The notes under the pieces were generated by a model. The model ran no database searches. It was not told where the DNA came from and saw only the letters and a list, made by a program, of their open reading frames with translations. The position numbers and the translations under genes were made by a program. A DNA stretch of 64,000 bases from Microbacterium sp. LWH13-1.2 (GTDB taxonomy: Bacteria > Actinomycetota > Actinomycetes > Actinomycetales > Microbacteriaceae). Of this stretch, positions 31,345 to 47,372 are shown one piece after another. The first letter of the stretch is position 1; each line of letters starts with the position of its first letter. The stretch spans positions 1,426,001 through 1,490,000 of the forward strand of contig NZ_CP151635.1 in assembly GCF_038397735.1 (NCBI RefSeq), in the 5' to 3' direction.

Positions 31345-31347
31345 CTT

Positions 31348-31370
31348 CTGTGCGCGATACTGGGATCGAA
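31348..31370. repeat. Left attachment site core (attL)
   Basis: These 23 bp recur exactly at 47350-47372. One mismatch then four more matching bases follow. The repeat covers the 3' end of tRNA-Val(GAC) from the discriminator base into the T-arm, the usual core for tyrosine integrases. Confidence 0.9.
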
Positions 31371-31492
31371 ACAGTATTTGTGATACTGGGCCACCCCGCA
31401 TGGTTGCAGCGATCTGCGCCGTCCTGGTGCGAATTTTGCCTGGTTGTGTTAAGGTCACTGGGACGCATGAGGTAGCAATACACCGCACAAGA

Positions 31493-31510
31493 TATTGCCC
31501 GTTATTGCCC
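31493..31510 (+). promoter_or_regulatory. Candidate integrase arm-type sites, left arm
   Basis: TATTGCCC occurs at 31493-31500 and again at 31503-31510, ten bases apart. The same motif recurs three times just inside the right end (47272-47303). Paired direct repeats on both arms are what tyrosine integrase N-terminal domains bind. Confidence 0.5.
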
Positions 31511-31524
31511 AGGAGAGACAGGCC

Positions 31525-32685
31525 ATGGTTCCCAAGAAGCGCAAGCGGCGAGAGTCGTTCGGTGCGATCCGGCAACGCTCGTCGGGCCGCTACCAGGCTT
31601 CGTACGTGGGGCCAGATGGAGAGCGTCACAACGCGCCGCAGACGTTCGATGGCATCACTGATGCCCGCGGTTGGCTCGCGGTGCAGCAGGCGCGCATCCT
31701 CGACGGCACTTGGTCAGAGTTCGACACTGCTCGCGCGGAGTCATCCGGCAAAGGTAAAGCGCTCACTTTCGGGTCATACGCCGAGGACTGGGTCAGCACC
31801 CGCACCAACCGCCACGGGGAGCATCTTCGCCCGCGTACGGCTGCTGAGTATCGGCGCCTCCTTGCGGGTTCGCTTCGCCCGTTCGCGGACTCGCGGCTGA
31901 CAGCCATTACGCCGGACCAAGTTCGTTCGTGGTACTCAACGCTCATCGCTGCCGGGACGAAGACCCAGGCCGCTCGAGCATATGAGCTCCTGAAATCAAT
32001 ACTTACAACCGCGGTCGCGGACGGACGCATCAAGGTCAACCCCTGCCAGATTCGGGGCGCCGCCTCCGCGTCGACAGGAAAGAAGACTGAGCCCCCAACT
32101 CCGTCAGAGCTGCAAGCGATCCTCAACGCGATCACGCCTCGCTTCCGAGCTGCAGTGGTCTTGGCCGCATGGACCGGCGTGCGCTACGGCGAGTTGACGG
32201 AGCTCCGCCGCAGAGACATTGAGATCGTCAGCGACGATGAGTCTCAGTCGATCGTGGTCAACGTTTCCCGCGGGGTAACGCACGTAACCGGGCAGGGCTT
32301 CATCGTCGGTCGAACGAAATCGGAGGCCGGAGTCCGTGCCATCGTTCTCCCTCCTCATGTCAACGACATCGTGACAGAACACCTGAGCGAGTTTGTAGGA
32401 AGGTCCGCCGACTCGCTGCTGTTCCCGTCAGCGGACGGAAGTGGGCATCTGGCTCAATCAGCGTTCTGGAAGCACTGGAACCCGGCTCGGATCGCGGCGG
32501 GTCGTCAAGACATGCCCTGGCACGCGCTCCGTCACTACGGCGCAACCCGTGCGGCATTGGCCGGAGCCACACTCAAGGAGCTGCAGTCGCGCCTCGGACA
32601 CTCTACGGTCGCGGCAGCGATGAGGTACCAGCACACCGCTGGCCGCGACGAAGAACTCGCGAGGCGCATGAGCGAACTCGCATGA
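31525..32685 (+). CDS. int: Tyrosine-type site-specific integrase
   Basis: A 386-residue recombinase that should integrate and excise the element at tRNA-Val. It has an N-terminal arm-binding/AP2-like region, a SAM-like core-binding domain (about residues 75-160) and a catalytic domain with Arg in TGVRYGEL, His-x-x-Arg in HALRHYG, His in LGHST and the nucleophile Tyr in MRYQH. The ATG at 31525 is preceded by AGGAGA eight bases upstream; a TTG ten codons earlier lacks a site. It uses the AGA codon at least once (LRRRDIE), which is rare in the host genes here. All catalytic residues are present, so it looks functional. Confidence 0.96.
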   Translation: MVPKKRKRRESFGAIRQRSSGRYQASYVGPDGERHNAPQTFDGITDARGWLAVQQARILDGTWSEFDTARAESSGKGKALTFGSYAEDWVSTRTNRHGEHLRPRTAAEYRRLLAGSLRPFADSRLTAITPDQVRSWYSTLIAAGTKTQAARAYELLKSILTTAVADGRIKVNPCQIRGAASASTGKKTEPPTPSELQAILNAITPRFRAAVVLAAWTGVRYGELTELRRRDIEIVSDDESQSIVVNVSRGVTHVTGQGFIVGRTKSEAGVRAIVLPPHVNDIVTEHLSEFVGRSADSLLFPSADGSGHLAQSAFWKHWNPARIAAGRQDMPWHALRHYGATRAALAGATLKELQSRLGHSTVAAAMRYQHTAGRDEELARRMSELA

Positions 32686-32776
32686 GAAGGGTGTCCGTGC
32701 CTGCGGACACCCCAACGAAGAGACCCCCACCGAGGTGCAACTCAGCGGGGGTCGGGTCACACAACTGGGAGTCGAA

Positions 32777-33154
32777 ATGACCACTGTTACTGTATCCGCA
32801 ATTACAGACACGCCACGATCCTGCACCGTGTACGCATGGTGCGAGCTCGATCACACTGACCCGGAGATCATTCGGTTCGCGCCTCACTCGCATGAGCAGC
32901 AAATCACGCTGACGGCCGGCGATGTCACCCAGGGTTTCCTTCTCGAGGTGGTGAAGGGTGTTCCACGAATCGAGTGCTCCCTCGATCTCGACGAGATCTG
33001 GCGAGAGCCCGGCGAGACTACGGACTCTTTCAAGAGTCTCAGCGACGTCTTCGCCACGGCGTCGACCCTTTACGCGAGGTTCGTGCGCGAGTTGACTCCG
33101 ACTCTCAAGCGGGCTCACGACGTCACTCACGAACTCTCTAGTCGGGACGTCTGA
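32777..33154 (+). CDS. Element protein of unknown function (125 residues)
   Basis: I do not recognise this family. The ATG at 32777 has GGGAG six bases upstream. The protein is acidic, opens with two beta-rich stretches (MTTVTVSAITDTPRS, VYAWCELDH) and ends in a helical segment (LYARFVRELTPTLKRAHDV). The stop overlaps the next start as TGATG, so it is translated with the HTH gene that follows. Its place between integrase and regulators suggests a role in control or excision, but nothing in the sequence proves this. Confidence 0.65.
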   Translation: MTTVTVSAITDTPRSCTVYAWCELDHTDPEIIRFAPHSHEQQITLTAGDVTQGFLLEVVKGVPRIECSLDLDEIWREPGETTDSFKSLSDVFATASTLYARFVRELTPTLKRAHDVTHELSSRDV

Positions 33155-33501
33155 TGGGCGTGCACGAGCAATTCATCGTTCTTGAGCGGTCCGGGCTGTC
33201 TGCTCGCGAGATCGCTCAGTTTTGCGGCGTCTCGAGCCGCACGGTGGTCCGGTGGCGGCACTCGACCCGACAGAGCCACCGCCCGGCGACAACCCCGCTT
33301 CCAACCGCACAGCTAGAGCAGGCCTTGCGCTTGCTCGAAGACGGAGCGTCCATAAGTGAAGCCGCTCGGAGTGTCGGCTGCGCGAACAAAACCCTTTCCA
33401 GGCGCTGGCCGCAGTATGCCTGGGACCCGTCGCAAGCGGGACGCTTTGCCGCTATGGTCGCTCGAGTGAACCGCGGATGGGAGCCAAGCGATGCCCGCTA
33501 A
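33154..33501 (+). CDS. Small protein with two helix-turn-helix segments
   Basis: A 115-residue protein with two HTH-like segments. The first is LSAREIAQFCGVSSRTVVRW (about residues 15-34), a good transposase/resolvase-type HTH. The second is ISEAARSVGCANKTLSRRW (about residues 70-88). A basic linker joins them. This resembles homeodomain-like regulators and phage Cox/excision-type factors rather than a recombinase, as no catalytic domain is present. It overlaps its neighbours on both sides (1 bp and 11 bp), so the three genes form one translational unit. Confidence 0.7.
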   Translation: MGVHEQFIVLERSGLSAREIAQFCGVSSRTVVRWRHSTRQSHRPATTPLPTAQLEQALRLLEDGASISEAARSVGCANKTLSRRWPQYAWDPSQAGRFAAMVARVNRGWEPSDAR

Positions 33502-34063
33502 GAGGTCGCGATCGCAAGTTGACGATGAGATTGTGGACATGATTCGCGAGGCAATGCGATTGCGAGGAATGTTGCAGAAGGATCTTGCCGCCGCGACGGG
33601 AATGACACAGCCCCAGATCAGCGTGCGGCTCTCGAAGTCTGGCGCTTCCATACCTGTCCACCAGGTCTTGCTGATGTGCGCCGCAGTGGGATTGGACGCT
33701 ACAAGGGTCTTCGGTGAAGCGTCAGAACGGGCGGAGAAGTCACCACTCAAGGCGCAAGCGGGTGACGTGGAAGCGGTCGCATACAAGCGCCCGCCGAGCT
33801 TGGACGATACGGGGCAGGTCGAAGCTGTCGGCCGTCAGATCGCAGCATCTCTGTGGGCCGGATGCGATGATCGCGACTTCATTGAGCTCGCGATCGACCA
33901 GATCATGTTTCGGGAAAACAATTCCTTTTGGAGCCCGCGCCGCAAGCAGCTCGCGCTGATGTTTGCTCTCAGCGACCTCGCCTACACGATCGGCCGGCGC
34001 TATCCAATCCGGGATCAGTTCACTCTGAAGCCCGTGCTCGACCCCGAGAGGATCATTCGCTAA
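33491..34063 (+). CDS. XRE-type HTH regulator, candidate element repressor
   Basis: A 190-residue protein. Residues 9-70 form a Cro/CI-type HTH (LQKDLAAATGMTQPQISVRL). The C-terminal half contains QIAASLWAGCDDRDFIELAI and is not a LexA-type protease, so any induction would not be by self-cleavage. GGGAG precedes the ATG by six bases. It is the best candidate for the maintenance repressor. It differs from classical prophages in being co-directional with the integrase instead of divergent from the early genes. A tRNA gene begins 38 bp downstream. Confidence 0.75.
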   Translation: MPAKRSRSQVDDEIVDMIREAMRLRGMLQKDLAAATGMTQPQISVRLSKSGASIPVHQVLLMCAAVGLDATRVFGEASERAEKSPLKAQAGDVEAVAYKRPPSLDDTGQVEAVGRQIAASLWAGCDDRDFIELAIDQIMFRENNSFWSPRRKQLALMFALSDLAYTIGRRYPIRDQFTLKPVLDPERIIR

Positions 34064-34101
34064 ACGAACAAGGTGGCGCTCGTGTGGGCGACCCCTTGGC
34101 A

Positions 34102-34174
34102 CCTGCTGCAGCTCAGTGGACAGAGCATCGAGCTTCTACCTCGATAGTCGCTGGTTCGAATCCAGCCAGCAGGA
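34102..34174 (+). tRNA. tRNA-Arg (anticodon UCU) encoded by the element
   Basis: A 73-nt cloverleaf folds with a perfect 7-bp acceptor stem (CCTGCTG with CAGCAGG), a D stem GCTC/GAGC, an anticodon stem TCGAG/CTCGA with loop CTTCTAC (anticodon TCT, reads AGA), a T stem GCTGG/CCAGC with loop TTCGAAT, and discriminator A. The D loop has the arginine identity base A20. Position 8 is C instead of the near-universal U. CCA is not encoded. The AGA codon is rare in the surrounding host genes but appears in the element's integrase and ATPase genes. Confidence 0.85.
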
Positions 34175-34389
34175 CGCATCCCCAGGCTGGCGTATCGCCC
34201 AAAACGCGAGACGAGCGCCGGCACAACAGGCCTCGACGCGCCATCCCATCCGGGTCAATTCATGCCAATAGCAGGCGTAGTTTTGCACACATTCTATAAA
34301 GCGCCTCAAGACTAATACGGGCCGAGAATCAGCGGAATTTCGCCAAATCGTCGTCCATCAGATCTGTCCGACGCTCCGAGAAACCTCTC

Positions 34390-34617: not shown

Positions 34618-34803
34618 ATGTCGGAAACTACTTGGGGAAGCATTGCAGAGGTAGCCGTTGTGATGGGCGTGAGCACAGACACAGTGCGCAGACGCTGCGC
34701 AGACGGGTCGATTCGCGCTGTCAAATTCGGGCCACGACTCATTCGCATTGACATGACGAGTTTGGAGAAGTCGGTGCGCCCCCTGGCCGGATATGCAGCA
34801 TGA
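34618..34803 (+). CDS. Excisionase-like HTH protein
   Basis: A 61-residue single-domain protein with a MerR/HTH_17-type fold. The pattern IAEVAVVMGVSTDTVRRRCAD, then IRAVKFGPRLIRI and a short C-terminal helix, is the standard excisionase/AlpA-like arrangement. It probably directs excision or acts as a small activator of the genes behind it. Its stop overlaps the next start as ATGA. It opens a tightly overlapped rightward operon that runs to about 37842. Confidence 0.8.
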   Translation: MSETTWGSIAEVAVVMGVSTDTVRRRCADGSIRAVKFGPRLIRIDMTSLEKSVRPLAGYAA

Positions 34804-35060
34804 CCAGCGGGCCTATCGAGCGTCTAATCCGCTACGCGTACGCGGGAGACGGCGTCGTCATCCCACCCGCCCGGATGACACGCATCATCCGCAAGTCAGT
34901 CCGCTTGCTGGGGTACACCCGAACGATTCAGCTCATTAATTCAGTTCGGACGGGCGCCATCAGTGAACAGCGCCTCCGCGTGATGACTTCGACGGGAGTG
35001 GCTGACCCTACGGGAGAACTGGCCGCGCAACGCGTCGACTTCGCGCGGGCAGTGAGTTGA
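34800..35060 (+). CDS. Element protein of unknown function (86 residues)
   Basis: A short basic protein (IRYAYAGDGVVIPPARMTRI, IIRKSVRLLGYTRTI). No family is recognised. It overlaps the upstream gene (ATGA) and the downstream one (TTGA), which supports that it is translated. A DNA-associated role would fit the position beside an excisionase-like gene and a RepA-like ATPase but is unproven. Confidence 0.6.
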   Translation: MTSGPIERLIRYAYAGDGVVIPPARMTRIIRKSVRLLGYTRTIQLINSVRTGAISEQRLRVMTSTGVADPTGELAAQRVDFARAVS

Positions 35061-35479
35061 ACGCGGCACCCTCACCGAGCGGAGCCGATCATCCACGCAC
35101 AACAATCAGCGCACAAGCATCGATCGCTATCGACGCATGGGCGTGGGGGCTCGCGGACGGCTCGCTGCGGCTCTGGCAACTCCCCGACGCAATCAACACC
35201 CTATGGGGAGTCGCCTACGAGCAAGGACGGCGCTCGCGAGACACGGAAGTGCAACTCCTGAAGCTCGACGCCGACCGTCTGTGGCTTCGCGCGTTCGTTG
35301 ACAACGACCGGCAGCAGTACCTTCTGGAGCGGCTCGACCAGGCCGCGGATCTCGCGAACCGACCAGATGTTGATGACGTCCTTGATGAGGCGTGGCAGAT
35401 CTACCTCGCCAGCCTCGACAACATCCGTGAGCCAATACGGTTCACCTCAACTCAAGACACCCGAAAGGAGGTCGCGTGA
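35057..35479 (+). CDS. Element protein of unknown function (140 residues)
   Basis: It is read from a TTG at 35057 coupled to the preceding stop. The body is acidic and mainly helical (LLKLDADRLWLRAFVDNDRQ, LDQAADLANRPDVDDVLDEA). Its 3' end carries AAAGGAGGT, the ribosome site of the ATPase gene, and overlaps that gene by 4 bp. Many actinobacterial phage and plasmid replication operons carry a small protein in this slot; the family is not recognised. Confidence 0.6.
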   Translation: MNAAPSPSGADHPRTTISAQASIAIDAWAWGLADGSLRLWQLPDAINTLWGVAYEQGRRSRDTEVQLLKLDADRLWLRAFVDNDRQQYLLERLDQAADLANRPDVDDVLDEAWQIYLASLDNIREPIRFTSTQDTRKEVA

Positions 35480-36615
35480 ACAGCTCAAACCGCATCTCAA
35501 TGCTGGACCTCATGTCTCGGAGGTTCGCCCCAATTCAGTACGTGATCCCCGGCATCATCCCCGAAGGTCTGACAATCCTTGCCGCACCACCGAAGATCGG
35601 TAAGTCCTGGCTCGTGCTCGACCTGGCGTACCAGCTCGCTACTGGCGGTGAAGCTCTCGGAGCAGTGCCAGTGGACCGAGCGAGACCCGTGTTGTACCTC
35701 GCTCTAGAAGATACGCAACGGCGACTTCAGGATCGCCTCAAACACCTTGATGTGGTTGTCGCACCTGAGGAGCTCTACTTCCAGACCGAGGCTGACCCCG
35801 GGTCCGTTCTCGAGCAGGCGAGAGAGTTCATGGGCGAACATCACGACGAGGCTCCGGTCATCATCATCGACACGCTTGGAAAGGTGGCAACGCCGGCAAA
35901 CACTGGCGAGTCGGACTACCAGAAGGACTATCGGATCGGTGGCGGTCTCAAGGCTGTCGCTGACAGCGTCTCGGGCGGTTCGGTGATCGTGGTTCATCAC
36001 ACTCGCAAAGCAGCGGGTGACGACTTCCTCGATTCCGTGTCAGGAACGCAGGGGCTCGCAGGATCTGCAGACTCGATCCTGGTCCTTCGCCGCGATCGCA
36101 ACGAGAACAATGGCAGCTTGTCTGTCACGTCACGCGACGCCGTTGAAGGCGAGTACGCCGTTCACCGAGACGGCGTGAGATGGGTGCTCGTTGGCGGCGC
36201 TCTTACCGAGGCTGCGGTCGCCCTGGCGAATCAGCGAGTGACCGAGGGACTAGGTGGAACATCGACCGCTGTTGTCGCGTACGTCACACAGCATCCAGAA
36301 GGAGTCCGCGCCGCCGACGTCGCCTCAGAGCTCATCATCACAGAAAAGGACGCAGGTACTTATCTGCTGCGCGCATACCGAGCGGCTCGAATCGGCAGAG
36401 CGGACCGCGGACTCTATATCCCCGTAGGAAACACCCCTGTAGGAAGCGTAGGAAGTGTAGGAACGGCACCTGAGCTTCCTACACAAACGACACTTCCTAC
36501 ACACCTACACACGGCCTACCTGTCGGAAACCGACCCCGGAACGTGCGTGCACGGAGTAACAGTCGGAGCTAAGTGCTCACGGTCAGGATGCGGCGGCAAG
36601 GCGGTGACGGCATGA
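35476..36615 (+). CDS. RepA-like AAA/RecA-fold ATPase (replicative helicase-type)
   Basis: A 379-residue RecA-fold ATPase of the RepA/AAA_25 type, likely the replication helicase of the element. Walker A is APPKIGKSW (about residues 36-44), Walker B is APVIIIDTLG, and a VIVVHHTRK strand follows, as in hexameric RepA helicases. A C-terminal winged-helix-like region is followed by a Gly/Ser/Thr/Pro linker and a possible zinc motif (C-x-H-x5-KC-x4-C). The GTG start has a perfect AAAGGAGGT. At least four AGA codons are used. The DNA coding the linker contains iteron-like repeats. Confidence 0.8.
   Translation: MNSSNRISMLDLMSRRFAPIQYVIPGIIPEGLTILAAPPKIGKSWLVLDLAYQLATGGEALGAVPVDRARPVLYLALEDTQRRLQDRLKHLDVVVAPEELYFQTEADPGSVLEQAREFMGEHHDEAPVIIIDTLGKVATPANTGESDYQKDYRIGGGLKAVADSVSGGSVIVVHHTRKAAGDDFLDSVSGTQGLAGSADSILVLRRDRNENNGSLSVTSRDAVEGEYAVHRDGVRWVLVGGALTEAAVALANQRVTEGLGGTSTAVVAYVTQHPEGVRAADVASELIITEKDAGTYLLRAYRAARIGRADRGLYIPVGNTPVGSVGSVGTAPELPTQTTLPTHLHTAYLSETDPGTCVHGVTVGAKCSRSGCGGKAVTA
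36424..36502. repeat. Iteron-like heptamers inside the RepA-like ATPase gene
   Basis: GTAGGAA occurs four times on the plus strand (36424, 36439, 36448, 36457; spacings 15, 9, 9). It is followed by two inverted copies, TTCCTAC, at 36476 and 36494. The protein segment encoded is a low-complexity linker, so selection may act on the DNA. It may be a binding site for the replication protein. Confidence 0.55.
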
Positions 36616-37275: not shown

Positions 37276-37842
37276 ATGGCACTCGACGCACTCAAGACCG
37301 AGATCGACGGCTACCGAAACAAAGCGATCGGCGAGATCACCCAATATCGGGAGCTTCACGAAAAGCTCAAGAACGACCAGTCCCTGACTCCGCTCGGCAA
37401 GCAGGAAGTCCTCGCCGATGCGCACCGACTCGTCACAGAGTCCGTGGCGAAGATTCAGAAGCAGGAAGAGACCGCGATCGCCACGAAGGCCGAGTCTCTT
37501 CAGCGCTCACTCGTGGCCAGGATCGGAACAAGCGGTGGCGACCTCGTTGCAATGCGAGACGCAGAGGAACGAGCCGACCGCCTCGAGGACGACAAGGACG
37601 CAATGCGAACCATCGAACGAGCGATCCGCTCCGATGATCGTTCCCTCGCGCACGCCGTGATCCGCAAAGCAAACGAGTCGGGCTGGGCTGACGTGGTCGA
37701 CAAGGCAGCTCAGGCGTACCCGTCAGCAGGCGAAGCGATCCGAGATGCGGCAGCACTCCACCGCTACACCAACGACATCCGCGAGGGGTTCGTCCGGGCG
37801 GCCACCTACTCAGTCGGAGACGCACCCCGCTTCCGCGGATGA
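37276..37842 (+). CDS. Predicted helical protein of unknown function (188 residues)
   Basis: An almost entirely alpha-helical, charged protein with long runs such as YRNKAIGEITQYRELHEKLK and AMRDAEERADRLEDDKDAMR that should form coiled coils. AAAGG lies ten bases before the ATG. It ends the left operon and is followed by a hairpin. Helical proteins of this size can be scaffolds or capsid-redirecting factors in phages and satellites. That is only a suggestion; no family is recognised. Confidence 0.6.
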   Translation: MALDALKTEIDGYRNKAIGEITQYRELHEKLKNDQSLTPLGKQEVLADAHRLVTESVAKIQKQEETAIATKAESLQRSLVARIGTSGGDLVAMRDAEERADRLEDDKDAMRTIERAIRSDDRSLAHAVIRKANESGWADVVDKAAQAYPSAGEAIRDAAALHRYTNDIREGFVRAATYSVGDAPRFRG

Positions 37843-38319: not shown

Positions 38320-38658
38320 ATGGCACGTATGCCGAGTGGTCTGGGTAAACCGGGCCAGAAGCTTTGGAAGTCGATTGATCAGCAGTTCGATCTCGCTGAA
38401 CATGAGCGCACGCAGCTCGAGCAGGCTTGTCGAGTCCGCGACACGATCGAGCTCCTTCGGGAGCAGGTGATCAAGGACGGTGTGATGATCCGATCGTCTC
38501 AGGGCGACCGGCTCCACCCGGCGATTGTTGAGGTTCGACAGCAGCAGCTCGCACTCGCGCGGCTCTTGGCGACCTTGAAAGTCCCGGGCCTTGAGGAAGA
38601 TGACCTTCCGTCGAGTCGCCCGGCGCGGGGTGTCTATGCGCTGCGAAGCGCATCGTGA
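38320..38658 (+). CDS. terS: Phage terminase small subunit-like protein
   Basis: A 112-residue protein resembling small terminase subunits of the P27 type. It starts with PSGLGKPGQKLWKSI, has a helical middle (LEQACRVRDTIELLREQV), the phrase GDRLHPAIVEVRQQQLALAR and an Arg-rich tail. Such proteins recognise packaging sites. No large terminase subunit follows, which is unlike an intact phage but is the hallmark of phage-inducible islands, whose small subunit redirects a helper's packaging. AAAGTAGGTG precedes the ATG. Confidence 0.75.
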   Translation: MARMPSGLGKPGQKLWKSIDQQFDLAEHERTQLEQACRVRDTIELLREQVIKDGVMIRSSQGDRLHPAIVEVRQQQLALARLLATLKVPGLEEDDLPSSRPARGVYALRSAS

Positions 38659-38819
38659 GGCGCAAGAAGGCTCCACATGCCGCGGAGACCCCGGTCGACG
38701 TTCTCTTGCGAGCGGTGGCTGCGAGCCGCCGTGCACAGGGTTTGCCTTGGCCTCCGCTGCGCCGGGACGGTCATTCGCGGACGGAGGTGGTCGGGCGTGC
38801 GTCGGAAGAAGCTCGTTGA
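38655..38819 (+). CDS. Small basic protein coupled to the terminase gene (54 residues)
   Basis: A GTG at 38655 overlaps the terminase stop as GTGA, and the frame runs to a TGA at 38819. The product is short and basic (MRRKKAPHAAETPVDVLLRA). It then overlaps the next gene, which begins inside it at 38797. Overlap is the only evidence for expression; the function is unknown. Confidence 0.4.
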   Translation: MRRKKAPHAAETPVDVLLRAVAASRRAQGLPWPPLRRDGHSRTEVVGRASEEAR

Positions 38820-39090
38820 CCGCGATCCGATCATCGCGGAGTCGCTTTCGGCGTCGGCGCTGACGCCGGCTCCGACCGATGACGTGCTTATGCCGTATCC
38901 GCTGAGGAAGAAGGCTTTCGAGCGGTGGCTGGAGAAGCGTTCCTCGTGGGTGGGACTGCGTGAGGCGTACGCGCTCGAGTACGGGTGGCCAGGTGGCGAT
39001 TATGCCCGTCACGTGGAGGAGGACGAGTCGCATCCGATTCCGGCTGCGCCGTTCGATCCGGAGTGGGAGATCCGAAACGGGGATCTATAA
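38797..39090 (+). CDS. Element protein of unknown function (97 residues)
   Basis: GGAGG lies nine bases before the GTG at 38797. The protein is mixed in charge and has the stretch PYPLRKKAFERWLEKRSSWV followed by an acidic tail. A longer frame from 38677 exists but overlaps the coupled small gene and lacks a ribosome site. The family is not recognised. It is the last gene inside the inverted-repeat cassette. Confidence 0.55.
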   Translation: MRRKKLVDRDPIIAESLSASALTPAPTDDVLMPYPLRKKAFERWLEKRSSWVGLREAYALEYGWPGGDYARHVEEDESHPIPAAPFDPEWEIRNGDL

Positions 39091-39353: not shown

Positions 39354-39576
39354 TGAGGATCTCGCACTGCAGGTCGCGGCGAAGATGCTCTTGGCCAAGC
39401 CGGGTCAACGTGAAGACGTGATGCGGGCAGAGATCCCGCTCGACCGCTTCGCTCGAGTGTTGCCGCTGCTCCCGGTGATGATGGCCCGGTTCTTCGACGG
39501 GTTCACCGAGAACAAGCAACTCCGGCTGGGTATGCAGGGAATCCTGCGCACCTACCTGCAGCAAAGTACGAAGTAG
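39346..39576 (+). CDS. Small protein in the tail-chaperone position (76 residues)
   Basis: It overlaps the small membrane gene by 8 bp and lies just before the tape measure gene, where siphophages keep tail assembly chaperones. The sequence is helical (LALQVAAKMLLAKPG, RFARVLPLLPVMMARFFDGF). I see no second frame or slippery site that would give the usual frameshifted partner, so the chaperone call is weak. Confidence 0.5.
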   Translation: MSDEDLALQVAAKMLLAKPGQREDVMRAEIPLDRFARVLPLLPVMMARFFDGFTENKQLRLGMQGILRTYLQQSTK

Positions 39577-39701: not shown

Positions 39702-41927
39702 ATGGCACAGGAAATTGGTGTGGCGTACGTGAGCCTGCTCCCGTCTGGGACCGGGTTCTCGAAAGCAGTAGACAAGGAAGCAACCTCGGCGTTCGGGAAC
39801 GCGGAGAAGCGGTCAAAGGGATTCTTCTCGTCGCTCGCGAGTGGCATCGGGAAGGTGGTCGGCGGCGTTGGGGTGCTCGCCGGCACAGTGGGGGCCATCG
39901 CTCTCACGGGCGGTATTTCGCGTGCTTTGAATATTGAGGATGCGACGGCGAAGCTGAAGGGTTTGGGTCACGATACCCAGACCGTTCAGGCGATCATGCA
40001 GGATGCTCTCGCGTCGGTGAAGGGTACGGCGTTTGGTTTGGATGCTGCGGCTACGACTGCGGCTTCTGCGGTGGCTGCGGGTATCAAGCCGGGTCAGGAG
40101 CTTGAGCGGTATCTGCGGTTGACGGCTGATGCGGCGACGATCGCTGGCACGTCGATGGGTGAGATGGGCGACATCATCAACCAGGTGACCTCTAAGGGTT
40201 ACGCGGGGATGGAGAACCTGAATCGTCTGACTGAGCGTGGTATTCCGATCATGCAGTGGCTGCAGAAGGAGTATGGCGTCACTGCGGATGAGTTGCAGAA
40301 GATGGTGTCTCGTGGCGAGGTGGATGCGGAGACGTTCCGCCGCGCGATTGAGAACAACATTGGTGGTGCGGCTCTCGAGTCCGGTAACACAACACGTGGC
40401 GCGTTCTCGAACATGGGCGCAGCTCTGTCTCGGCTCGGTGAAGCCTTCGCCGGTCCCGGCCTGGGACTCGCGCGGGACTTCTTCAACGAGCTGACGACGA
40501 TCGCGGACGGAATCACCGCCCGCGTGCAGCCCGTCGTCGAAAAGCTGCAATGGACGATCGACGGGATCGACTTTCAATTCGCGGAAGGAGCGCTGAACGG
40601 TCTCGACCGACTCGTCTCAGGCTTCGGTGACCTCAAGGACACGTTCAAGGGCTTCGACGGGCTCACGCCCGTCTTTACAGCTCTCGCGGGTGCCATGGCG
40701 CCTCTGCTGGCCACGCTCCCGATCATTGGACGGTTCCTGCCGGTGATCTCCGGACCCGTGGGTGCAGTGATCGGCCTGCTCGTCGGCATGTTCATCGAGT
40801 CGGAAGCACTGCAGAGCTCGGTGATGGGGCTGGGTGAGACCTTCAAACCGCTTCTCCAAGTGCTTCAGGAGCTCGGAGCGAAGATCGGCCCCGTGCTGTC
40901 AGACGTCCTCGCAGAGATGGGCGACCAGCTCGCGGAAATCGTCCCACTCCTTGCAGAAGCTCTTGTTGATGCCCTCGTCGAGTTGGCGCCCCCGCTGACG
41001 GATCTGGTGCTGGCTCTCCTGCCACTCATCCCGCCACTGATCCAGCTAGTGGTCGACATCCTGCCGCTTCTCACCGATGCGCTGAAGTTCCTGATCCCGA
41101 TCCTCGTTCCGATCGTCCAGGGCATCGCGGAGCTGTACAACGTGTTCGTGCAGCTCGTCAGCTTCTTGTCTGGAAACAAGACCTTCGACGAGATGACCAG
41201 CTCCCTGGAAGCGACAGGCGGGCCGATCATGGACATGGCGCGAGCGGTCACCGATTGGCTGATGCCTGCGCTCAACTGGCTCACCGAGACGGTCTCGCAG
41301 GTAGTCGCGTCTTGGAACTCCGGCTGGTCACAGATCGGCGCGTTCTTCTCCGGTGCAGTGCAGAACATCCTCAACATCGGACAGATGATCTGGACTGCGC
41401 TGCCGGACGGAATCCGCACGGGTATCGAATCAGCAGTGACGATCTTCGCTTCGCTCCCAAACCGCATTCAGGCGATCCTGTCTGGGGCGGGCGCGTGGCT
41501 CGTCAGCTCCGGTCGTGCGCTCATGCAGGGCTTCATTGACGGCATCAAAAGCATGGTGGGCAGTGTCGGATCCGCCATCAACGGTGTCCTCGACTGGGCG
41601 TCCGGGTTCTTCCCGCACTCGCCCGCCAAGCGGGGAACATTCGCTGGTTCTGGGTGGACCGCCGTGGAGGATGGCGGCGCCTCCCTGATGGAGCAGTTCG
41701 CGTTCGGTGCCGAGTCCTACCGACCCGAGATCTCGTTCACCAACATGAGCAGTCTGATCGGGGCCGCTTCGACGTCACCATCCGGCCTTGCGGCTGGTGA
41801 CAGTATGCGACTGGTCGTGGACGGGTACGAGTTCAACGCCTATGTCGATGACCGTGCGGAAGGGCGCGTGCAGAACTACTCGCGGGACTTCTCGCAGACC
41901 ATTCGCCGCGGCGTGCGGACGGTCTGA
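39702..41927 (+). CDS. Phage tail tape measure protein
   Basis: A 741-residue protein from the ATG at 39702 (GGGGGT upstream). It follows the tape measure layout: an N-terminal TMP domain (SLLPSGTGFSKAVDKE, then QVTSKGYAGMENLNRLTERG), a Gly/Ala-rich region, long hydrophobic helices in the middle (PLTDLVLALLPLIPPLIQL and similar), and the C-terminal DWASGFFPHSPAKRG segment found in many TMPs. It sets tail length in siphophages. By the usual rule of about 0.15 nm per residue it would match a tail of about 110 nm. The gene is intact, yet no tail tube, tail-tip or baseplate gene accompanies it. Confidence 0.92.
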   Translation: MAQEIGVAYVSLLPSGTGFSKAVDKEATSAFGNAEKRSKGFFSSLASGIGKVVGGVGVLAGTVGAIALTGGISRALNIEDATAKLKGLGHDTQTVQAIMQDALASVKGTAFGLDAAATTAASAVAAGIKPGQELERYLRLTADAATIAGTSMGEMGDIINQVTSKGYAGMENLNRLTERGIPIMQWLQKEYGVTADELQKMVSRGEVDAETFRRAIENNIGGAALESGNTTRGAFSNMGAALSRLGEAFAGPGLGLARDFFNELTTIADGITARVQPVVEKLQWTIDGIDFQFAEGALNGLDRLVSGFGDLKDTFKGFDGLTPVFTALAGAMAPLLATLPIIGRFLPVISGPVGAVIGLLVGMFIESEALQSSVMGLGETFKPLLQVLQELGAKIGPVLSDVLAEMGDQLAEIVPLLAEALVDALVELAPPLTDLVLALLPLIPPLIQLVVDILPLLTDALKFLIPILVPIVQGIAELYNVFVQLVSFLSGNKTFDEMTSSLEATGGPIMDMARAVTDWLMPALNWLTETVSQVVASWNSGWSQIGAFFSGAVQNILNIGQMIWTALPDGIRTGIESAVTIFASLPNRIQAILSGAGAWLVSSGRALMQGFIDGIKSMVGSVGSAINGVLDWASGFFPHSPAKRGTFAGSGWTAVEDGGASLMEQFAFGAESYRPEISFTNMSSLIGAASTSPSGLAAGDSMRLVVDGYEFNAYVDDRAEGRVQNYSRDFSQTIRRGVRTV

Positions 41928-41930
41928 CAG

Positions 41931-41969: not shown

Positions 41970-41974
41970 GGCAA

Positions 41975-42373
41975 TCAGAACAGATTCAACCAAGCAGAGA
42001 AGATCGTTCCAATGCCGAAGATCCACAAGTACAAGCTGCCCGCGTCGGCGACGTCTCCAGCGAGACGCTCGGATGCTCGAAGCTCCTTGATTCCAGCGGC
42101 TTTCGGATTGATCGACAGGCCATCGGTGTAAACCCGGATCTGACGCTCCCGAATCCTCGCGATCTCCTTAAGCCCTCCCATCAAGATCGCGAGAACTCCC
42201 AGCCCCACGGCGTAGGTCTTCGCTTCAACGCTGCCCTTCTCGGGTCCGAACACGAGCAACGCGGTGAGCCCGAGGAACACAACGGCGATGATGACGACCA
42301 CCAACGTCGTCTTCTTGATCTGCTTCTTGACCGCGTCCGTCAAGTTTGTATTCGCATGCATGCGCACGAGCAT
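41975..42373 (-). CDS. Small membrane protein of unknown function (132 residues)
   Basis: Three hydrophobic segments are visible: TTLVVVIIAVVFLGLTALLV, YAVGLGVLAILMGGL and LYLWIFGIGTIFSAW. A charged cytoplasmic stretch (IARIRERQIRVYTDGLS) lies between the second and third. The start is uncertain: ATGs at 42373 and 42361 both lack a clear ribosome site, and the frame extends to 42451. No family is recognised. It is the last gene of a leftward cargo group. Confidence 0.55.
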   Translation of the reverse strand: MLVRMHANTNLTDAVKKQIKKTTLVVVIIAVVFLGLTALLVFGPEKGSVEAKTYAVGLGVLAILMGGLKEIARIRERQIRVYTDGLSINPKAAGIKELRASERLAGDVADAGSLYLWIFGIGTIFSAWLNLF

Positions 42374-42534
42374 ATCTAACTGAATCCGCTGATAAACGTG
42401 GAAGGAAGCATGAAGCCCAGTTGATCGTGGCCCACCATCCAGAGAAGCCATTCCACAGTTCTTCCATCACGTCTCGGAGCAGAGCGAGAGATCGCTCGCA
42501 GTCGGCGATGATGCGGCGAACGGACCGCGAGGGG

Positions 42535-43785
42535 CTACAAACTAAGATCCTTGACCGCTTTAGCCGTGTCAGCGACAGTCTTGATGTCAGCCAAGTCAAT
42601 GCGGAACGTCGTCACCTTCTCATCTGATCGTCTGCCCTGCGGTTCAGGAGAAGACGCAAAGATTCGTTCGCCGAGCATCCTCCGGAACGCGGTGGCTTCG
42701 GTCTCAGACATACCTTCCGTGAACGGTTCGAGCGCGAGAAGATCGAGAGCGCGGTAGTTCGCTTCGATTGCGTTGCGCTGCCGCTTCCCTGCTTCTCGGA
42801 AACAGAACCCGGAGAATGCGATAGCCGTGACCGAGAGACCAGTTTTGAGAAGCGTGACCGTCAGGTCCGGCGCCTCGTTAAGCCGGGCGATCTCTCGGAG
42901 CTCGAGTCCGAGGTAGGCGAGGGTAGCGATGACTGCAAGGCTCCCGGCTGCAATCCAAAGCCGGTAAGCGAAACGTTCTCGCCGGGCAAACTTGTCGTAC
43001 CCACCAGCTCGCGCCTGGTCGCCAACGCGTTGAACTAGCTGCTGGCCAAGTTCAGCGTCCTTCGCCAGAGAGGTGATGGACTTCTCAGCCCGAGCCTCCA
43101 GTTCGTCTCGTTGACTCTGAGCAAGCGAAGATACCTGTTCTCGTTGCTTGCCGGCGTCGATCTCAATCTTGCGGAGAGTGTCACTGTGCGTCGCGTTCCA
43201 CTCATCGGTGATCACTGTCTGTTCGGAAACAAACCTGTCGATCGTCGACTGCGCCTCGGCTGCGATGCTCTGCGCCATCTGGGTCGCCGCGGAGGATGCT
43301 TGAAGAGCAGCTTGCGCCTCACTGTGCGCCAACTCGGCGTCTGCCTGAAGAGCTTGCAGCGATGACTCTGCTGTCTCGACATAGTTGCGCGCCGCGTCGA
43401 TGACCTGAACCGAGCGAGACGGGTTAGGGAGAGCCGGCCAGAATCCTCTGCTGAGCTCCCCCAGAATCTGATCGCAGAGTGCGTCGATTTGAGTAACCGT
43501 GTTCGGAGCCATAGCCCCCGACTGATCCCACCCCTGCACCTGACTTTCTAGCGCCTGAACGAGGTTGTGGAACATGGCGGCCTGATTAAGTCGTTGGCTC
43601 GGAAACAAGTCGGGCGAGACGTTACCAAACGCGCTCAGGTACTGCATGACGTTCTTGGCTCGAGCGGTAGTCGCTCGATCGATGTCACTCAGCGGACGAG
43701 TTCGGCGTAGTTCGTTCTTCACATCGTCGACGGCATCCCAAAGAGGGTGGCGCTTGAAGGCATCGATGTCTTCGGGCGAGGTCAT
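42535..43785 (-). CDS. Coiled-coil membrane protein of unknown function (416 residues)
   Basis: Residues 1-130 are a soluble domain. Residues of about 140-275 form a long coiled coil (SSLQALQADAELAHSEAQAA, then REQVSSLAQSQRDELEARAE). Two transmembrane helices follow (LWIAAGSLAVIATLAYLGL and LLKTGLSVTAIAFSGFCF), and a C-terminal cytoplasmic region ends in KAVKDLSL. The ATG at 43785 is eight bases after TAGGGT. It starts 4 bp after the stop of the 119-residue gene, so the two form an operon. Membrane-tethered coiled-coil proteins are frequent in phage-defence cargo, but this one matches no family I know. Confidence 0.65.
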   Translation of the reverse strand: MTSPEDIDAFKRHPLWDAVDDVKNELRRTRPLSDIDRATTARAKNVMQYLSAFGNVSPDLFPSQRLNQAAMFHNLVQALESQVQGWDQSGAMAPNTVTQIDALCDQILGELSRGFWPALPNPSRSVQVIDAARNYVETAESSLQALQADAELAHSEAQAALQASSAATQMAQSIAAEAQSTIDRFVSEQTVITDEWNATHSDTLRKIEIDAGKQREQVSSLAQSQRDELEARAEKSITSLAKDAELGQQLVQRVGDQARAGGYDKFARRERFAYRLWIAAGSLAVIATLAYLGLELREIARLNEAPDLTVTLLKTGLSVTAIAFSGFCFREAGKRQRNAIEANYRALDLLALEPFTEGMSETEATAFRRMLGERIFASSPEPQGRRSDEKVTTFRIDLADIKTVADTAKAVKDLSL

Positions 43786-43789
43786 AACC

Positions 43790-44149
43790 TCAGACCCTAG
43801 CGGCCTCAGGCCCGGCACAAAGAGTTTCGCACCAATCGTCTTGGGACGAGACTGCGTTGCCCCATACCCAGCAGCGAAACACCCGGTCGCCGGCCTTGAA
43901 CTCAATTCCTGCTGCAAGCGTCGTCGACCGCACGACTTTCGCGTCTACACAGATGGGCTCTGGGCCGAACCTCACCCATGCGCGCACCCTACGTTGGGCG
44001 GCATGCGGATAGACCGTGACTGGCGTATCGCGTAGAGCCAACTCGCGGTCAGACAGCGATTGCAGCGGCCCAGACCTCGCCGCCGAGAGGATCGCCTGGT
44101 GTTGTGCCTGCATGTCGTAGTACGGGGCCAACCGCTTACTCGTCCCCAT
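43790..44149 (-). CDS. Cargo protein of unknown function (119 residues)
   Basis: Read from the ATG at 44149, with GGAAGG eight bases upstream; a longer frame to 44278 overlaps the divergent promoter. The N-terminal half is helical (YYDMQAQHQAILSAARS). The C-terminal half is beta-rich (RRVRAWVRFGPEPICVDAKV, VFRCWVWGNAV). It is co-transcribed with the coiled-coil membrane protein gene. No family is recognised. Confidence 0.6.
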   Translation of the reverse strand: MGTSKRLAPYYDMQAQHQAILSAARSGPLQSLSDRELALRDTPVTVYPHAAQRRVRAWVRFGPEPICVDAKVVRSTTLAAGIEFKAGDRVFRCWVWGNAVSSQDDWCETLCAGPEAARV

Positions 44150-44219
44150 GCCGGCATCCCTTCCTCCGGCCTCAACCCAGGGTAGCAAGACTCGAACCTC
44201 TGTTCTAGAGTCTTTACCC

Positions 44220-44480
44220 ATGGAAGCCGTAACTGTCGAACACCCCACAACCCTATGGATGGTCAACGACATCCCCACGAGGATGGTCTACGCGGGCCAA
44301 CGATGGCGCATCACGGACACGCCCACACGGTTGCGCCACTCAGTGTGGACCGCGCCCCTCGAGCCCCACACGGGTCTCTACGGCTGGCGATTCCAAGGAA
44401 CCAACGAGGACGGCCTATCACTCGTTTTCGACGTCTACAAGGGCCAGAACGGCTGGCACGTACACCGCACCTACGACTAG
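44220..44480 (+). CDS. Small beta-rich protein, DUF6504-like (86 residues)
   Basis: The ATG at 44220 lies eight bases after TAGAGT, so the transcript is probably leaderless. The pattern of an N-terminal strand, VYAGQRWRITD, a tryptophan-rich middle and a final FDVYKGQNGWHVHRTYD resembles the DUF6504 proteins found in actinobacteria, some of which accompany DNA polymerase IV-like genes. The match is from memory of the motif order and is not strong. It is divergent from the 119-residue gene. Confidence 0.5.
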   Translation: MEAVTVEHPTTLWMVNDIPTRMVYAGQRWRITDTPTRLRHSVWTAPLEPHTGLYGWRFQGTNEDGLSLVFDVYKGQNGWHVHRTYD

Positions 44481-44496
44481 GCGGTACGGTCACAGC

Positions 44497-44979
44497 ATGA
44501 GTGTCATCGGGCTGATCGCCATCATCTTGTACGTGCTGGGTCTCGCTCTGACCGGGTGGGGACTCTTTAGCGCCGTCGTGACCACGCAGCGCGACATCAT
44601 TCGGTCGAAGGATCGTCTCGCCACTCTCAAGAACCTGGAAGCACGTCAACATGCCGAATCCCGCGAGCTCAGCGAGCAGCAGGCTCAGGACTGGCGCGAC
44701 ATCGTCTCAGCCGCCACGACCCCCGTTCCAGACCAGGCTCGGAAGGATTGGGATGACAGGTGGTCTGCAAGATTCGCCGTTATGCATGCGCGTCAGGACC
44801 AAGAGTTTGCCGAACTCGACTCAACGAGAGCGACTCTCGACAACCTGCCGCACCTCGCTCAGTTCGAGAGCCAATGGCTTCTTCAGAGGATCTTGGACTC
44901 CAACCGGGGAAACCTCGTCCTACTTGGTAGCGGTCTCGTCGTCACTACGATCGGGAGTATCGCGTCCGTCTTTGCCTAG
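44497..44979 (+). CDS. Two-helix membrane protein with cytoplasmic coiled coil (160 residues)
   Basis: An N-terminal membrane helix (LIAIILYVLGLALTGWGLFS), a charged helical middle of about 95 residues and a C-terminal helix (GNLVLLGSGLVVTTIGSIAS) give a hairpin topology. The ATG is six bases after TACGGT, so it is probably leaderless. It lies 16 bp after the preceding gene. Its stop overlaps the convergent HicB-like gene by 4 bp. The function is unknown. Confidence 0.55.
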   Translation: MSVIGLIAIILYVLGLALTGWGLFSAVVTTQRDIIRSKDRLATLKNLEARQHAESRELSEQQAQDWRDIVSAATTPVPDQARKDWDDRWSARFAVMHARQDQEFAELDSTRATLDNLPHLAQFESQWLLQRILDSNRGNLVLLGSGLVVTTIGSIASVFA

Positions 44980-45296
44980 TCGCTGAAGACGGTTACGGCG
45001 ACGTCGAACGAGTCCGTAGTCACATCGAGAGCGATGGCAATGTAGTCGCGTGCCATCGCTGGGATCTCCTCACGCGTACGTGCCTGAGTTGCGCCGTCGA
45101 TTTGTGGGATACGGATAAACCACAACTGACCGTCGCGCTTTGCTGTCACCTCGTAGACGTACTTCGCGGTCATCAGAATCTCGAAGTTCGCGTCGCCGCC
45201 TGACCCCGACCCGGTTCCTTGAGACCGATATCCGTCCGGCAGTTCCTCTACTACTTCATCGGCCCGCGGACCGCCGACTAGCCTGTACTTCACCAT
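44976..45296 (-). CDS. HicB-like antitoxin-fold protein
   Basis: A 106-residue protein. Its C-terminal 60 residues (YEVTAKRDGQLWFIRIPQID, then ARTREEIPAMARDYIAI) match the HicB antitoxin fold with its degraded RNase H-like sheet and helix. The N-terminal 40 residues (VGGPRADEVVEELPDGYRSQ) are an unusual extension. No HicA toxin gene lies next to it, so it is an orphan or works with an unknown partner. The ATG is at 45296. Confidence 0.6.
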   Translation of the reverse strand: MVKYRLVGGPRADEVVEELPDGYRSQGTGSGSGGDANFEILMTAKYVYEVTAKRDGQLWFIRIPQIDGATQARTREEIPAMARDYIAIALDVTTDSFDVAVTVFSD

Positions 45297-45378
45297 GGTG
45301 CGAGCATACGTTGAGGTGGCCGGTGCGGGTGAGACTCTGTTTCAACCTCGACTAGCTCGGTGTCAACCTCTTCTTCGA

Positions 45379-45401
45379 AACCGGCAGCGCCGCCGGTTTT
45401 T
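45379..45401 (+). terminator. Small intrinsic terminator
   Basis: AACCGGC (45379-45385) pairs with GCCGGTT (45392-45398) and is followed by a T-run to 45401. It lies in the 161-bp gap between two leftward genes. No rightward gene that would need it is visible, although it may block antisense transcription. Confidence 0.5.
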
Positions 45402-45457
45402 CCGGTCGACGTCTAGAAAGCTAGTCGGTACGTCTACCTGCTACGACTGATGGGCTG

Positions 45458-45643
45458 TTAGCCAGCAACCATCAAATCGTCGCGGCGCACAGGAGCGACA
45501 ACGCTTTCGGCCGAGCCGTTATCTATCTCCACAAGAATCCTCCCGCGTCGATCGACCTTCGGCGACACGAGACGGGCCGTTACGGTCCCGCGACCGACTC
45601 GTACCCGCACCGGATCACCAGCATGATAGTCGGTCATCACCAT
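45458..45643 (-). CDS. Small basic partner protein next to the HEPN gene (61 residues)
   Basis: A short beta-rich protein of SH3/KOW-like appearance (YHAGDPVRVRVGRGTVTARL, then LVEIDNGSAESVV). Its ATG at 45643 overlaps the stop of the HEPN gene by 7 bp, so the two are translationally coupled. This is the arrangement expected of a toxin-antitoxin or toxin-regulator pair. No known antitoxin family is recognised. Confidence 0.55.
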   Translation of the reverse strand: MVMTDYHAGDPVRVRVGRGTVTARLVSPKVDRRGRILVEIDNGSAESVVAPVRRDDLMVAG

Positions 45644-46251
45644 GGCTCCGCTCCAGTCAAGTCTTTGATTGCTGCTCCTACCACACTATCCAACTTGTGA
45701 GCAAGATCGTCCATATTTCCACGCCACCTTTTTGCCTCACTCATAGCTAGGGGCGTTTTGAGGCGAACCTGAGCAAGCTTCACTGGATCTTGGTGAGCGA
45801 TCGCGTTACGGGCGTCGTTGAGCAGTTCCAGGGAATCTTGTAGCTGTTGACCTCGAGCCGGCCACCTCGTCTTGATCGTGTCCCAAAGCTTGAAATTGAA
45901 CCTATTGAAGTCCGCACCAAGTGACGAGGGCTGGGCGTTCACCTTGTTTAGTTGCAGACCAGTGTTCATCTGGATACTGAGAAGGTTCGACATGCCGGGA
46001 TCAGTCAGGGTGCTGGCTACAGCTGAGACACCTTCGATATAGAGATCTCGACAGAAGGCCTGGAACTCTGAAGCCACGCGCACGATCATCGAGTGGTTCA
46101 CTTCCTCTGTGAACCACTTTCGCCCTGGCGTTCCACCAGTTACCGCCCGATGAACGTTCTCTAGGTTGCGGAGCCCCCTCATGCGTCGATCGGACCAAGT
46201 TGCGAGGGCATCTGACGGCACGGACCTGACGATAGCAGCTTGAGAGAGCAA
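45637..46251 (-). CDS. HEPN-domain protein, candidate ribonuclease toxin
   Basis: A 204-residue helical protein. The segment NDARNAIAHQDP contains R-x4-H with a polar residue after the arginine (RNAIAH), the catalytic signature of HEPN ribonucleases, preceded by the expected long helix. The N-terminal half (VNHSMIVRVASEFQAFCRDL) fits RiboL-PSP-HEPN-like proteins. The given start is a TTG; a GTG near 46221 or an ATG further in is possible. It is coupled to the small downstream gene. HEPN toxins cut RNA in abortive infection and toxin-antitoxin systems; that role is inferred here. Confidence 0.6.
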   Translation of the reverse strand: MLSQAAIVRSVPSDALATWSDRRMRGLRNLENVHRAVTGGTPGRKWFTEEVNHSMIVRVASEFQAFCRDLYIEGVSAVASTLTDPGMSNLLSIQMNTGLQLNKVNAQPSSLGADFNRFNFKLWDTIKTRWPARGQQLQDSLELLNDARNAIAHQDPVKLAQVRLKTPLAMSEAKRWRGNMDDLAHKLDSVVGAAIKDLTGAEPW

Positions 46252-46318
46252 GCGATCATCAGCGTCCTTCTATAGTCGACGCTCAGTGAGCAGACGCGCC
46301 GCCACATGGAATCCCAGT

Positions 46319-47191
46319 TCATTTCGGCGTCGGAATCGGCGTGAAGCCAGCCTGGGGCGAGCCGACCTGCAGCTTCACAAGGGCTTCGCGCTCCCGAAAA
46401 GCGTTCCAGGTACGGAACAGGTAGAAGAGCGCCTGACCAGGGAGGATGCGCCGTGACGCGCCTGATTGCAGGTCGTTGGATACACGCCGGGTGAGCGTCA
46501 GAAACGGGTCGCCAGGACCGTTCTGGACTCCGTCCCGTATTCGGTTGAAGAACTCAGCCGTGTCATCTACGTCGAGCTTTGAGAACTCGAGGTAGGCGAC
46601 ACCGAGCGCACTCACCGGCAGGCGCAGATAGCGGTACATGCCTCGGGCGTGACGTGCTGCAAACTCGATGTTCGGGATCGAAAGGACTGCGTCGGCCATC
46701 TCGGACTTCGTGAGTCCTGAGCTCCCTCCGATGTGAGATGCGGCGTGCTTCACATCGCCGGCCTGGAACGCGGAGTAGAGACGTGCGATGGCGCCGACGT
46801 CTTTGGCGTCTGCTCGGTCAGCCAAACCGGTGATCACGAGCATGTCCCCGGTGTTGCGCGCTGAGCCCGAATCGAGGACCACAAGCGCGTCCTCGCTGAT
46901 ACCGCGAACGACGAGCACCCAAGCGCCCTTCGCCGCTGCGACGATCGCCTGACAACGGTTCTGACCATCGATCAGATGGCCCGCGGTGTCGAACTTGATC
47001 GCCTCCCCCGTGATCACCCAACGATCACTCTGGATGTCACGGACGTACCCGTTGATGCGGCTCTTTCGCATGTTCCGGTTGCGGTCGATGTTCACCGCCA
47101 ACCACTCGACTGCCATCTCTGGCGTCACGAAGACGTACTCAGCCGTCTCCCCCGCTGGACCGTGCGCGACGGTCGCTGCCTGAGCTTTCAT
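46319..47191 (-). CDS. ParB-like nuclease-fold protein
   Basis: A 290-residue protein from the ATG at 47191, with AAGGGG five bases upstream. The N-terminal part (MRKSRINGYVRDIQSDRW, then FDTAGHLIDGQNRCQAI) has the ParB/sulfiredoxin-type fold motif DGQNR used for nucleotide or DNA binding. The C-terminal 180 residues are helical. Such proteins are common in actinophages and integrative elements, where they are annotated as ParB-like. It stands next to the right attachment site, as the integrase does at the left. A longer frame to 47428 only runs into the tRNA gene. Confidence 0.7.
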   Translation of the reverse strand: MKAQAATVAHGPAGETAEYVFVTPEMAVEWLAVNIDRNRNMRKSRINGYVRDIQSDRWVITGEAIKFDTAGHLIDGQNRCQAIVAAAKGAWVLVVRGISEDALVVLDSGSARNTGDMLVITGLADRADAKDVGAIARLYSAFQAGDVKHAASHIGGSSGLTKSEMADAVLSIPNIEFAARHARGMYRYLRLPVSALGVAYLEFSKLDVDDTAEFFNRIRDGVQNGPGDPFLTLTRRVSNDLQSGASRRILPGQALFYLFRTWNAFREREALVKLQVGSPQAGFTPIPTPK

Positions 47192-47218
47192 GGTCACCCC
47201 TTGTCGGAGCGGGCGTTC

Positions 47219-47244
47219 ACTTGATCCCGCTGCTGAGATCAAGT
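47219..47244. promoter_or_regulatory. Inverted repeat upstream of the ParB-like gene
   Basis: ACTTGATC (47219-47226) and GATCAAGT (47237-47244) are perfect inverted copies with a 10-base spacer. They lie 28 bp before the ParB-like start codon and are a good candidate operator, possibly for that protein itself. Confidence 0.45.
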
Positions 47245-47271
47245 TGTAACCAAGAAGTTCTCGGGGCGCAC

Positions 47272-47303
47272 TATTGCCGGATCGTATTGCCCAGATGTTG
47301 CCC
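47272..47303 (+). promoter_or_regulatory. Candidate integrase arm-type sites, right arm
   Basis: TATTGCCG at 47272, TATTGCCC at 47285 and TGTTGCCC at 47296 repeat the motif seen at 31493 and 31503, in the same orientation and with 11-13 base spacing. In the excised circle both sets would flank the crossover core. Confidence 0.5.
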
Positions 47304-47322
47304 GAGCTTCCCCAGACAACAA

Positions 47323-47348
47323 AAAACCCCCGGATTTCCGGGGGTTTT
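47323..47348 (-). terminator. Terminator of tRNA-Val carried by the element
   Basis: AAAACCCCCGG pairs with CCGGGGGTTTT around ATTT. On the minus strand it follows the tRNA directly. It lies on the element side of the right junction, so the element brought a replacement terminator together with the tRNA 3' end. Confidence 0.8.
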
Positions 47349-47349
47349 G

Positions 47350-47372
47350 CTGTGCGCGATACTGGGATCGAA
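47350..47372. repeat. Right attachment site core (attR)
   Basis: Exact 23-bp copy of 31348-31370. Here it is part of the intact tRNA-Val(GAC) gene, whose 3' end it restores. Confidence 0.9.

Follow-up and report, generated by a model that had tools for sequence, protein, structure and literature searches.

What kind of mobile element carries a gene for a terminase small subunit (terS) without one for the large subunit (terL), and a gene for a tape measure protein (TMP) without any other recognised gene for the tail tube, the head or packaging? This question is raised by a 16.0-kb element at a tRNA-Val gene of Microbacterium sp. LWH13-1.2, at positions 31348-47372 of the window, the stretch of 64,000 nucleotides analysed here, to which coordinates refer unless a relative is named. 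The combination is common to many relatives, and the element is probably a TerS-type actinobacterial phage satellite, which would be packaged by a helper phage and would build the helper's tails around its own TMP.

The TMP gene (39702-41927, +) yields 741 residues from its best start at 39702, and matches PF20155 (7e-21), many TMP PHROGs and, at 68-70% identity, the TMP of L018, a relative in a Microbacterium sufflavum record. Before it lies terS (38320-38658, +), which matches phrog_1496 (1e-17) and is 87% identical to that of L018; its Pfam match, Terminase_4, falls below the cut-off, and a search of solved structures gave no match for TerS. No gene for terL, portal, capsid or major tail protein turned up in the element in PHROG and Pfam searches, run on 20 of its 26 listed open reading frames (ORFs), in tblastn of its DNA, first with four phage reference sets and later with ten, picked by similarity, or with profile hidden Markov models. 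The same searches recover terL, portal and capsid in five true prophages (L032, L102, L103, L107 and L108), which indicates that the method works. The succession of terL, portal, capsid and tail operon that follows terS in a prophage was thus not found in the element. As for lysis genes, the only matches were a weak Rz-like one (E 0.027), in an ORF of 460 residues, and one to phrog_971, labelled 'endolysin', which comes from the TMP itself; the TMP-like gene of phage B22 bears the same label. The preliminary description of this DNA had listed a TerS-like gene and an intact TMP of 741 residues, and had noted the lack of TerL, portal, capsid and lysis genes, all of which agrees with these searches.

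Relatives were sought with terS as a handle, and stretches of up to ~20 kb were fetched where the contigs allow. It was detected in at least 15 of 295 genomes of the genus, at least 22 of 398 of the family (at least 23 places), the own genome being in both draws, and at least 27 of 394 of the class; the draws are samples, and the counts are lower bounds since at most 11 candidates were scored per genome in the profile searches. Of the 37 places in Microbacteriaceae (15 from the genus survey and 22 from the family survey, the own place left out of the latter), five belong to full prophages, in which terL, portal and capsid are all present. At 19, a TMP adjoins terS but terL, portal and major tail protein are lacking, and the other 13 have neither a TMP nor those genes. 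A separate scan added places in Agrococcus (L019), Demequina (L020) and Microcella (L021), the last being the only one with a TMP, which gives 20 TMP elements. Viral contigs gave no match to the replication protein and a single one to terS (L002), with no TMP in the stretch examined.

Direct repeats of 22-39 bp bound ten of these 20 elements, with sizes of 9.9-16.9 kb (the window element, L018, L021, L024, L025, L026, L027, L030, L097 and L101). L029, L099 and L110, with repeats of 14-15 bp only, were not counted as bounded, and no end repeat was found in the other TMP elements, the contig ending in L028. Thus, the proposal of a phage satellite made in the preliminary description gains support, and its expectation of like elements in other Microbacteriaceae was borne out. 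Its further expectation, that the site would always be tRNA-Val, was not: this site is used in the window and L025, with its core shared by L027 and L097, while others lie at tRNA-Ser (L018, L026), tRNA-Leu (L021), tRNA-Phe (L024) or the end of a gene (L030).

In the 20 elements, together with L119 and L124 from the class survey (22 in all), terS and TMP are 0.16-2.3 kb apart, against 8.3-11.2 kb in seven reference phages. Relatives with capsid or portal genes in this gap, which had been named beforehand as the sign of a decayed prophage, were looked for and not found, and the capsid homolog of L097, the one such case among the 20, lies before terS. L119 (6799-9660) is a satellite-like element from another family of the class, whose TMP of 953 residues lies directly before terS and is nearest to that of phage TM4 in the tree described below.

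Between the window and L018, dN/dS (the ratio of nonsynonymous to synonymous substitution rates) is 0.20 over 729 codons of the TMP, from which we conclude that the TMP is under purifying selection; the corresponding values are 0.056 for terS and 0.38 for g188, a gene of the slot before terS. Taking these data together, it can be asked whether the element is what remains of a prophage after loss of the head and lysis genes, the leftover terS and TMP having been joined by a deletion. Although both are phage genes, with terS preceding TMP here as in the usual phage order, and an empty site or excision is not shown, the arrangement recurs in 20 elements with differing integrases, attachment (att) sites and TMP families, both genes are under purifying selection, no remnants of other structural genes were found by PHROG, Pfam or tblastn, and TMP precedes terS in L021 and L119, the reverse of the phage order. 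A private deletion in one prophage would not account for an architecture that is found again at several integration sites and whose TMP is kept by purifying selection. Decay, which we hold to be very improbable for this element, was rejected as a general account on the ground of this recurrence.

In a tree of TMPs, with 20 rows from satellites (L119 included, L094 not) and 17 from phages or prophages, satellite and phage labels intermix, with 10 changes of label, at least six of them forced by well-supported branches. Shuffled labels gave a mean of 12.7 changes, with 44 of 500 shuffles as low, which points to slight clustering; some long branches are unsure. The window integrase is 77% identical to that of L025 (74% to L027, 65% to L097) and its replication protein is 68% identical to that of L026, yet there is no TMP match between the window and either L025 or L026, and L025 and L027 share 91% identity in the replication protein but 38% in the TMP. 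Backbone and TMP thus uncouple, the TMP being a part that is both maintained and exchanged.

Such swapping of TMP types between related satellites also fits a reading in which the satellite TMP chiefly serves to change host range or the entry of DNA and affects tail length only incidentally. The TMP of phage HK97 reportedly acts in DNA entry, and some relatives add spike-like or S74-type proteins: spike-like proteins stand straight after the TMP in L018 (13555-15198) and L101 (13747-15468), and an S74-type protein beside that of L099. The L101 protein gives a Beta_helix match just below the cut-off, and that of L018 no Pfam match and a weak match to a PHROG labelled head decoration (4e-4), so that calling these two proteins spikes is our own reading. 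A large protein with the look of a beta-helix spike was also seen in L109 (7932-9533); such proteins adjoin TMP or terS in satellites, and of these three the L101 one alone has a Pfam match near the cut-off. An effect on entry or host range is possible, if doubtful as the principal function, and it would be compatible with a chimeric tail rather than opposed to it.

A different role has been considered, in which the satellite TMP poisons or shortens helper tails as a decoy and so protects the host, staying out of the satellite's own particles. Tail assembly is a known target of defence, with Tab described as acting on the TMP (PMC10884400) and Tai as blocking tails (PMC11364771). We judge this role unlikely, taking into account that full-length TMPs are conserved, that four of the 20 elements (L025, L027, L029 and L031) encode a homolog of a tail chaperone between terS and TMP, and that the spike-like or S74-type genes beside the TMP in L018, L101 and L099 fit assembly better.

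The slot before terS is occupied in the window by g188 (37276-37842, +), which encodes a coiled-coil-like protein with homologs in L018, L021, L022, L024, L031, L104 and L117; they recur in non-prophage terS places (eight members examined). The window copy belongs to no PHROG or Pfam family and has no match in the phage collection, one of the eight homologs matches a PHROG labelled tail protein (2e-4), and solved structures gave weak, short or coiled-coil matches only (best E 0.0076 over 30 residues). In L097, a lone PF05065 capsid homolog (8725-9576) fills this slot, and in L106 a capsid-like protein (11733-12626), with a weak P22-coat-like match, lies near terS; portal and terL were not found in either, and lone capsid-like homologs were seen in these two only. 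Since they lie there or near terS, they suggest that the slot may serve capsid remodelling, with g188 as a candidate factor. The lone capsid homologs resemble a capsid-resizing strategy.

It is proposed that the satellite would operate as follows. On infection by a siphophage, the element would excise and replicate, and its TerS would steer the helper's large terminase and portal onto satellite DNA, while the product of the slot before terS (g188 here) may reshape the capsid of the helper. The satellite TMP, joined in some members by a chaperone of the satellite's own, would then be the core around which the helper's tail-tube and tip proteins assemble. In the chimeric tail of the resulting particle, the satellite would dictate the length and perhaps also how DNA enters the cell. 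Searches of the host genome found no PF03354 TerL, no PF05065 capsid and, with the window TMP as query, no second TMP. A helper prophage in the same genome, sought with these two families, was therefore discarded, which leaves an external helper or one of a different type.

Several points weigh against this proposal. The evidence is comparative throughout, and neither a helper nor induction, excision or particles have been observed; an empty integration site, sought in 14 fetched relatives, was not shown; no recognised tail chaperone was found in the window element; TerL types beyond PF03354 and the chosen phage reference sets could escape the searches; and in L094 the TMP is divided between two ORFs. 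Moreover, a TMP went undetected in 13 of the 32 non-prophage places of Microbacteriaceae, two of which (L034 and L035) lie on contigs that begin close to terS. At class level, terL is present in five of 30 places outside the own genome (L114, L125, L134, L140 and L141), and only two of the other 25 have a TMP, clear in L119 (PF20155) and weaker in L124 (local profile only, with no Pfam match). Profiles found neither terL nor TMP in the remaining 23, some of which are on short contigs. The TMP is consequently frequent in terS elements of Microbacteriaceae but not universal. A TMP in L129 (29% by tblastn) and a capsid in L128 (25% by tblastn) were not upheld by profiles.

The ends of the element are marked by an identical 23-bp core, at 31348-31370 (attL) and 47350-47372 (attR), set within a longer imperfect repeat of 84-87% identity that includes the tRNA terminator. 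The right copy overlaps the tRNA-Val at 47352-47424, and GC content is 57-63% within the element against 65-71% outside. Two much alike terminator copies are seen, one of the host beside attL (31317-31347) and the element's own beside attR (47321-47349); the tRNA-Val would retain a terminator after integration because the element brings its own. In the 14 fetched relatives, a stretch of terminator and core adjoins the tRNA over at least 51 bp in 13 and over 26 bp in L169. It was dropped as evidence of an empty site, being uninformative because the element carries a like terminator and the next 1.5 kb matches neither the left flank of the window nor the right end of the element.

The remaining genes also bear out the preliminary description, in which intact att repeats, a full integrase, an excisionase-like gene, a regulator of the XRE type and a RepA-like ATPase had been listed. 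A tyrosine integrase (31525-32685, +; PF00589, phrog_1) is followed by a two-helix-turn-helix DNA-binding protein of 115 residues (33154-33501, +; phrog_664 9e-25, HTH_23), which cross-matches some TerS PHROGs through its helix-turn-helix (1e-5), and by the XRE-type regulator (33491-34063, +), a candidate repressor with weak matches (phrog_1373 2e-7; HTH_3 at 21.1 bits, cut-off 23). Between the latter and the excisionase-like HTH_17 protein (34618-34803, +; phrog_66, PF12728), ARAGORN predicts a tRNA-Arg (tct) inside the element (34102-34175, +), with another in the matching place of L028 (14153-14226), the two tRNA sequences differing. A conserved protein (35057-35479, +), with homologs in L034, L028 and L021, lies upstream of the RepA-like replication ATPase (35476-36615, +; PF13481 5e-26), an AAA_25 protein found in many members of the family.

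Between terS and TMP are encoded g137, a small conserved protein (38797-39090, +; 63% identity to L018, 59% to L022 and 46% to L023), a membrane-like protein of 55 residues (39186-39353, +; 77% identical and with dN/dS 0.14 against L018) and g89 (39331-39576, +; 54% identity to L018, dN/dS 0.50), a candidate tail chaperone by its position directly before the TMP. Beyond the TMP, an accessory region (41975-46251) encodes membrane and coiled-coil proteins and a HEPN-like protein (45637-46251; HEPN_RiboL-PSP 0.0017, below cut-off); PADLOC recognised no known defence gene in it, giving only a weak HEPN match (E 0.004). On the reverse strand, 46319-47191 encodes a protein that we take to be ParB-like, with a match to phrog_5931 (no assigned function) and a 33% homolog downstream of the TMP in the satellite L099 (16307-17227). 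In L026, a protein of 213 residues right after the TMP (6461-7102) matches phrog_13702, labelled terminase large subunit (3e-25); the label is doubtful, the protein being far too short, and similar-looking proteins follow the TMP in L029 and L031. L111 (6957-9098) is an element with terS and a PF20155 TMP, whose recombinase is presumably serine-recombinase-like and which lies beside what we take to be a comM-like gene.

Median TMP length is 887 residues in 20 satellites (L119 in, L094 and L124 out) and 1090 in 14 phages (Mann-Whitney p 0.017), a difference not relied on, the phages having been hand-picked by similarity. Under the lambda rule of ~0.15 nm of tail per TMP residue, 741 residues predict a tail of ~110 nm. 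That the TMP would set the length of helper tails is suggested by TMP biology and by the phage-inducible chromosomal island-like elements (PLEs) of Vibrio cholerae, for which it was reported in 2026 that a TMP, a chaperone and a hub enter chimeric tails ~10 nm shorter, and that deletion of tmp cut transduction by 96% in PLE1 and 99% in PLE4 (PMC12987554). That paper also gives putative tmp genes for PLE-like elements of Vibrio and, in the legend of its Extended Data Fig. 10, for some capsid-forming phage-inducible chromosomal islands (PICIs).

As described there, PLEs resemble the actinobacterial family in being satellites with a TMP, in distinct sequence types, and no complete tail. A chaperone accompanies the TMP in PLEs, whereas a recognised one is found in only four of 20 elements here. 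The phage exploited by PLEs, ICP1, is lytic and has a contractile tail, and a baseplate hub is among the proteins that PLEs encode; the actinobacterial family differs in that terS stands beside the TMP, that many members have an AAA_25 replication protein and that its TMPs are actinophage-like. The chimeric tail has been demonstrated for PLEs, whereas here it is proposed.

The element also shares features listed for PICIs, namely a size around 15 kb, an integrase with its own att site, a regulator, a replication gene, an optional terS and terminal accessory genes (PMC6092414), its own size being 16.0 kb and its 23-bp core lying at both ends. Thus, it appears organised like a PICI, but it is not called one because its TMP breaks another feature of that list, the absence of structural genes. 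Capsid-forming PICIs likewise supply part of the virion, some with a putative tmp (PMC12987554), but are described as encoding capsid, portal and both terminase subunits (PMC10690885), of which terS alone was found here, apart from the lone capsid-like homologs of L097 and L106. The Streptomyces satellites MulchRoom and MiniFlayer also belong to Actinomycetota, but encode capsid and terminase genes, the tail of MulchRoom being ascribed to its helper (PMC10690885). The account of a Pseudomonas satellite in PMC4936722 reports no structural genes in it. Besides the PLE paper, no report of satellites with tape measure genes, in Actinobacteria or Microbacterium or elsewhere, was found in the open-access literature. 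Chimeric-tail satellites are already known from PLEs, and the actinobacterial family with terS and TMP would be a further variant.

We see evenly balanced chances that a widespread actinobacterial satellite lineage exists with a virion-remodelling cassette (a capsid slot with g188 or a lone capsid homolog, terS, tail chaperone, TMP and, in some, a spike or fibre). Its tail part would pass between satellites, and between them and phages, as a way of matching helpers. In 20 elements, a terS for packaging specificity stands together with a tail ruler, both the family's own, and the ruler types are mixed among those of phages. The family makes directly testable why a parasite would replace the ruler, whether to set tail length, to escape defences aimed at the TMP, or to change DNA entry or host range, and many sequenced phages exist for environmental Microbacterium strains. 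In sum, parasites of viruses may remodel the tails of their victims, and, if such a lineage is confirmed, tail remodelling would be a general satellite strategy and not a peculiarity of Vibrio.

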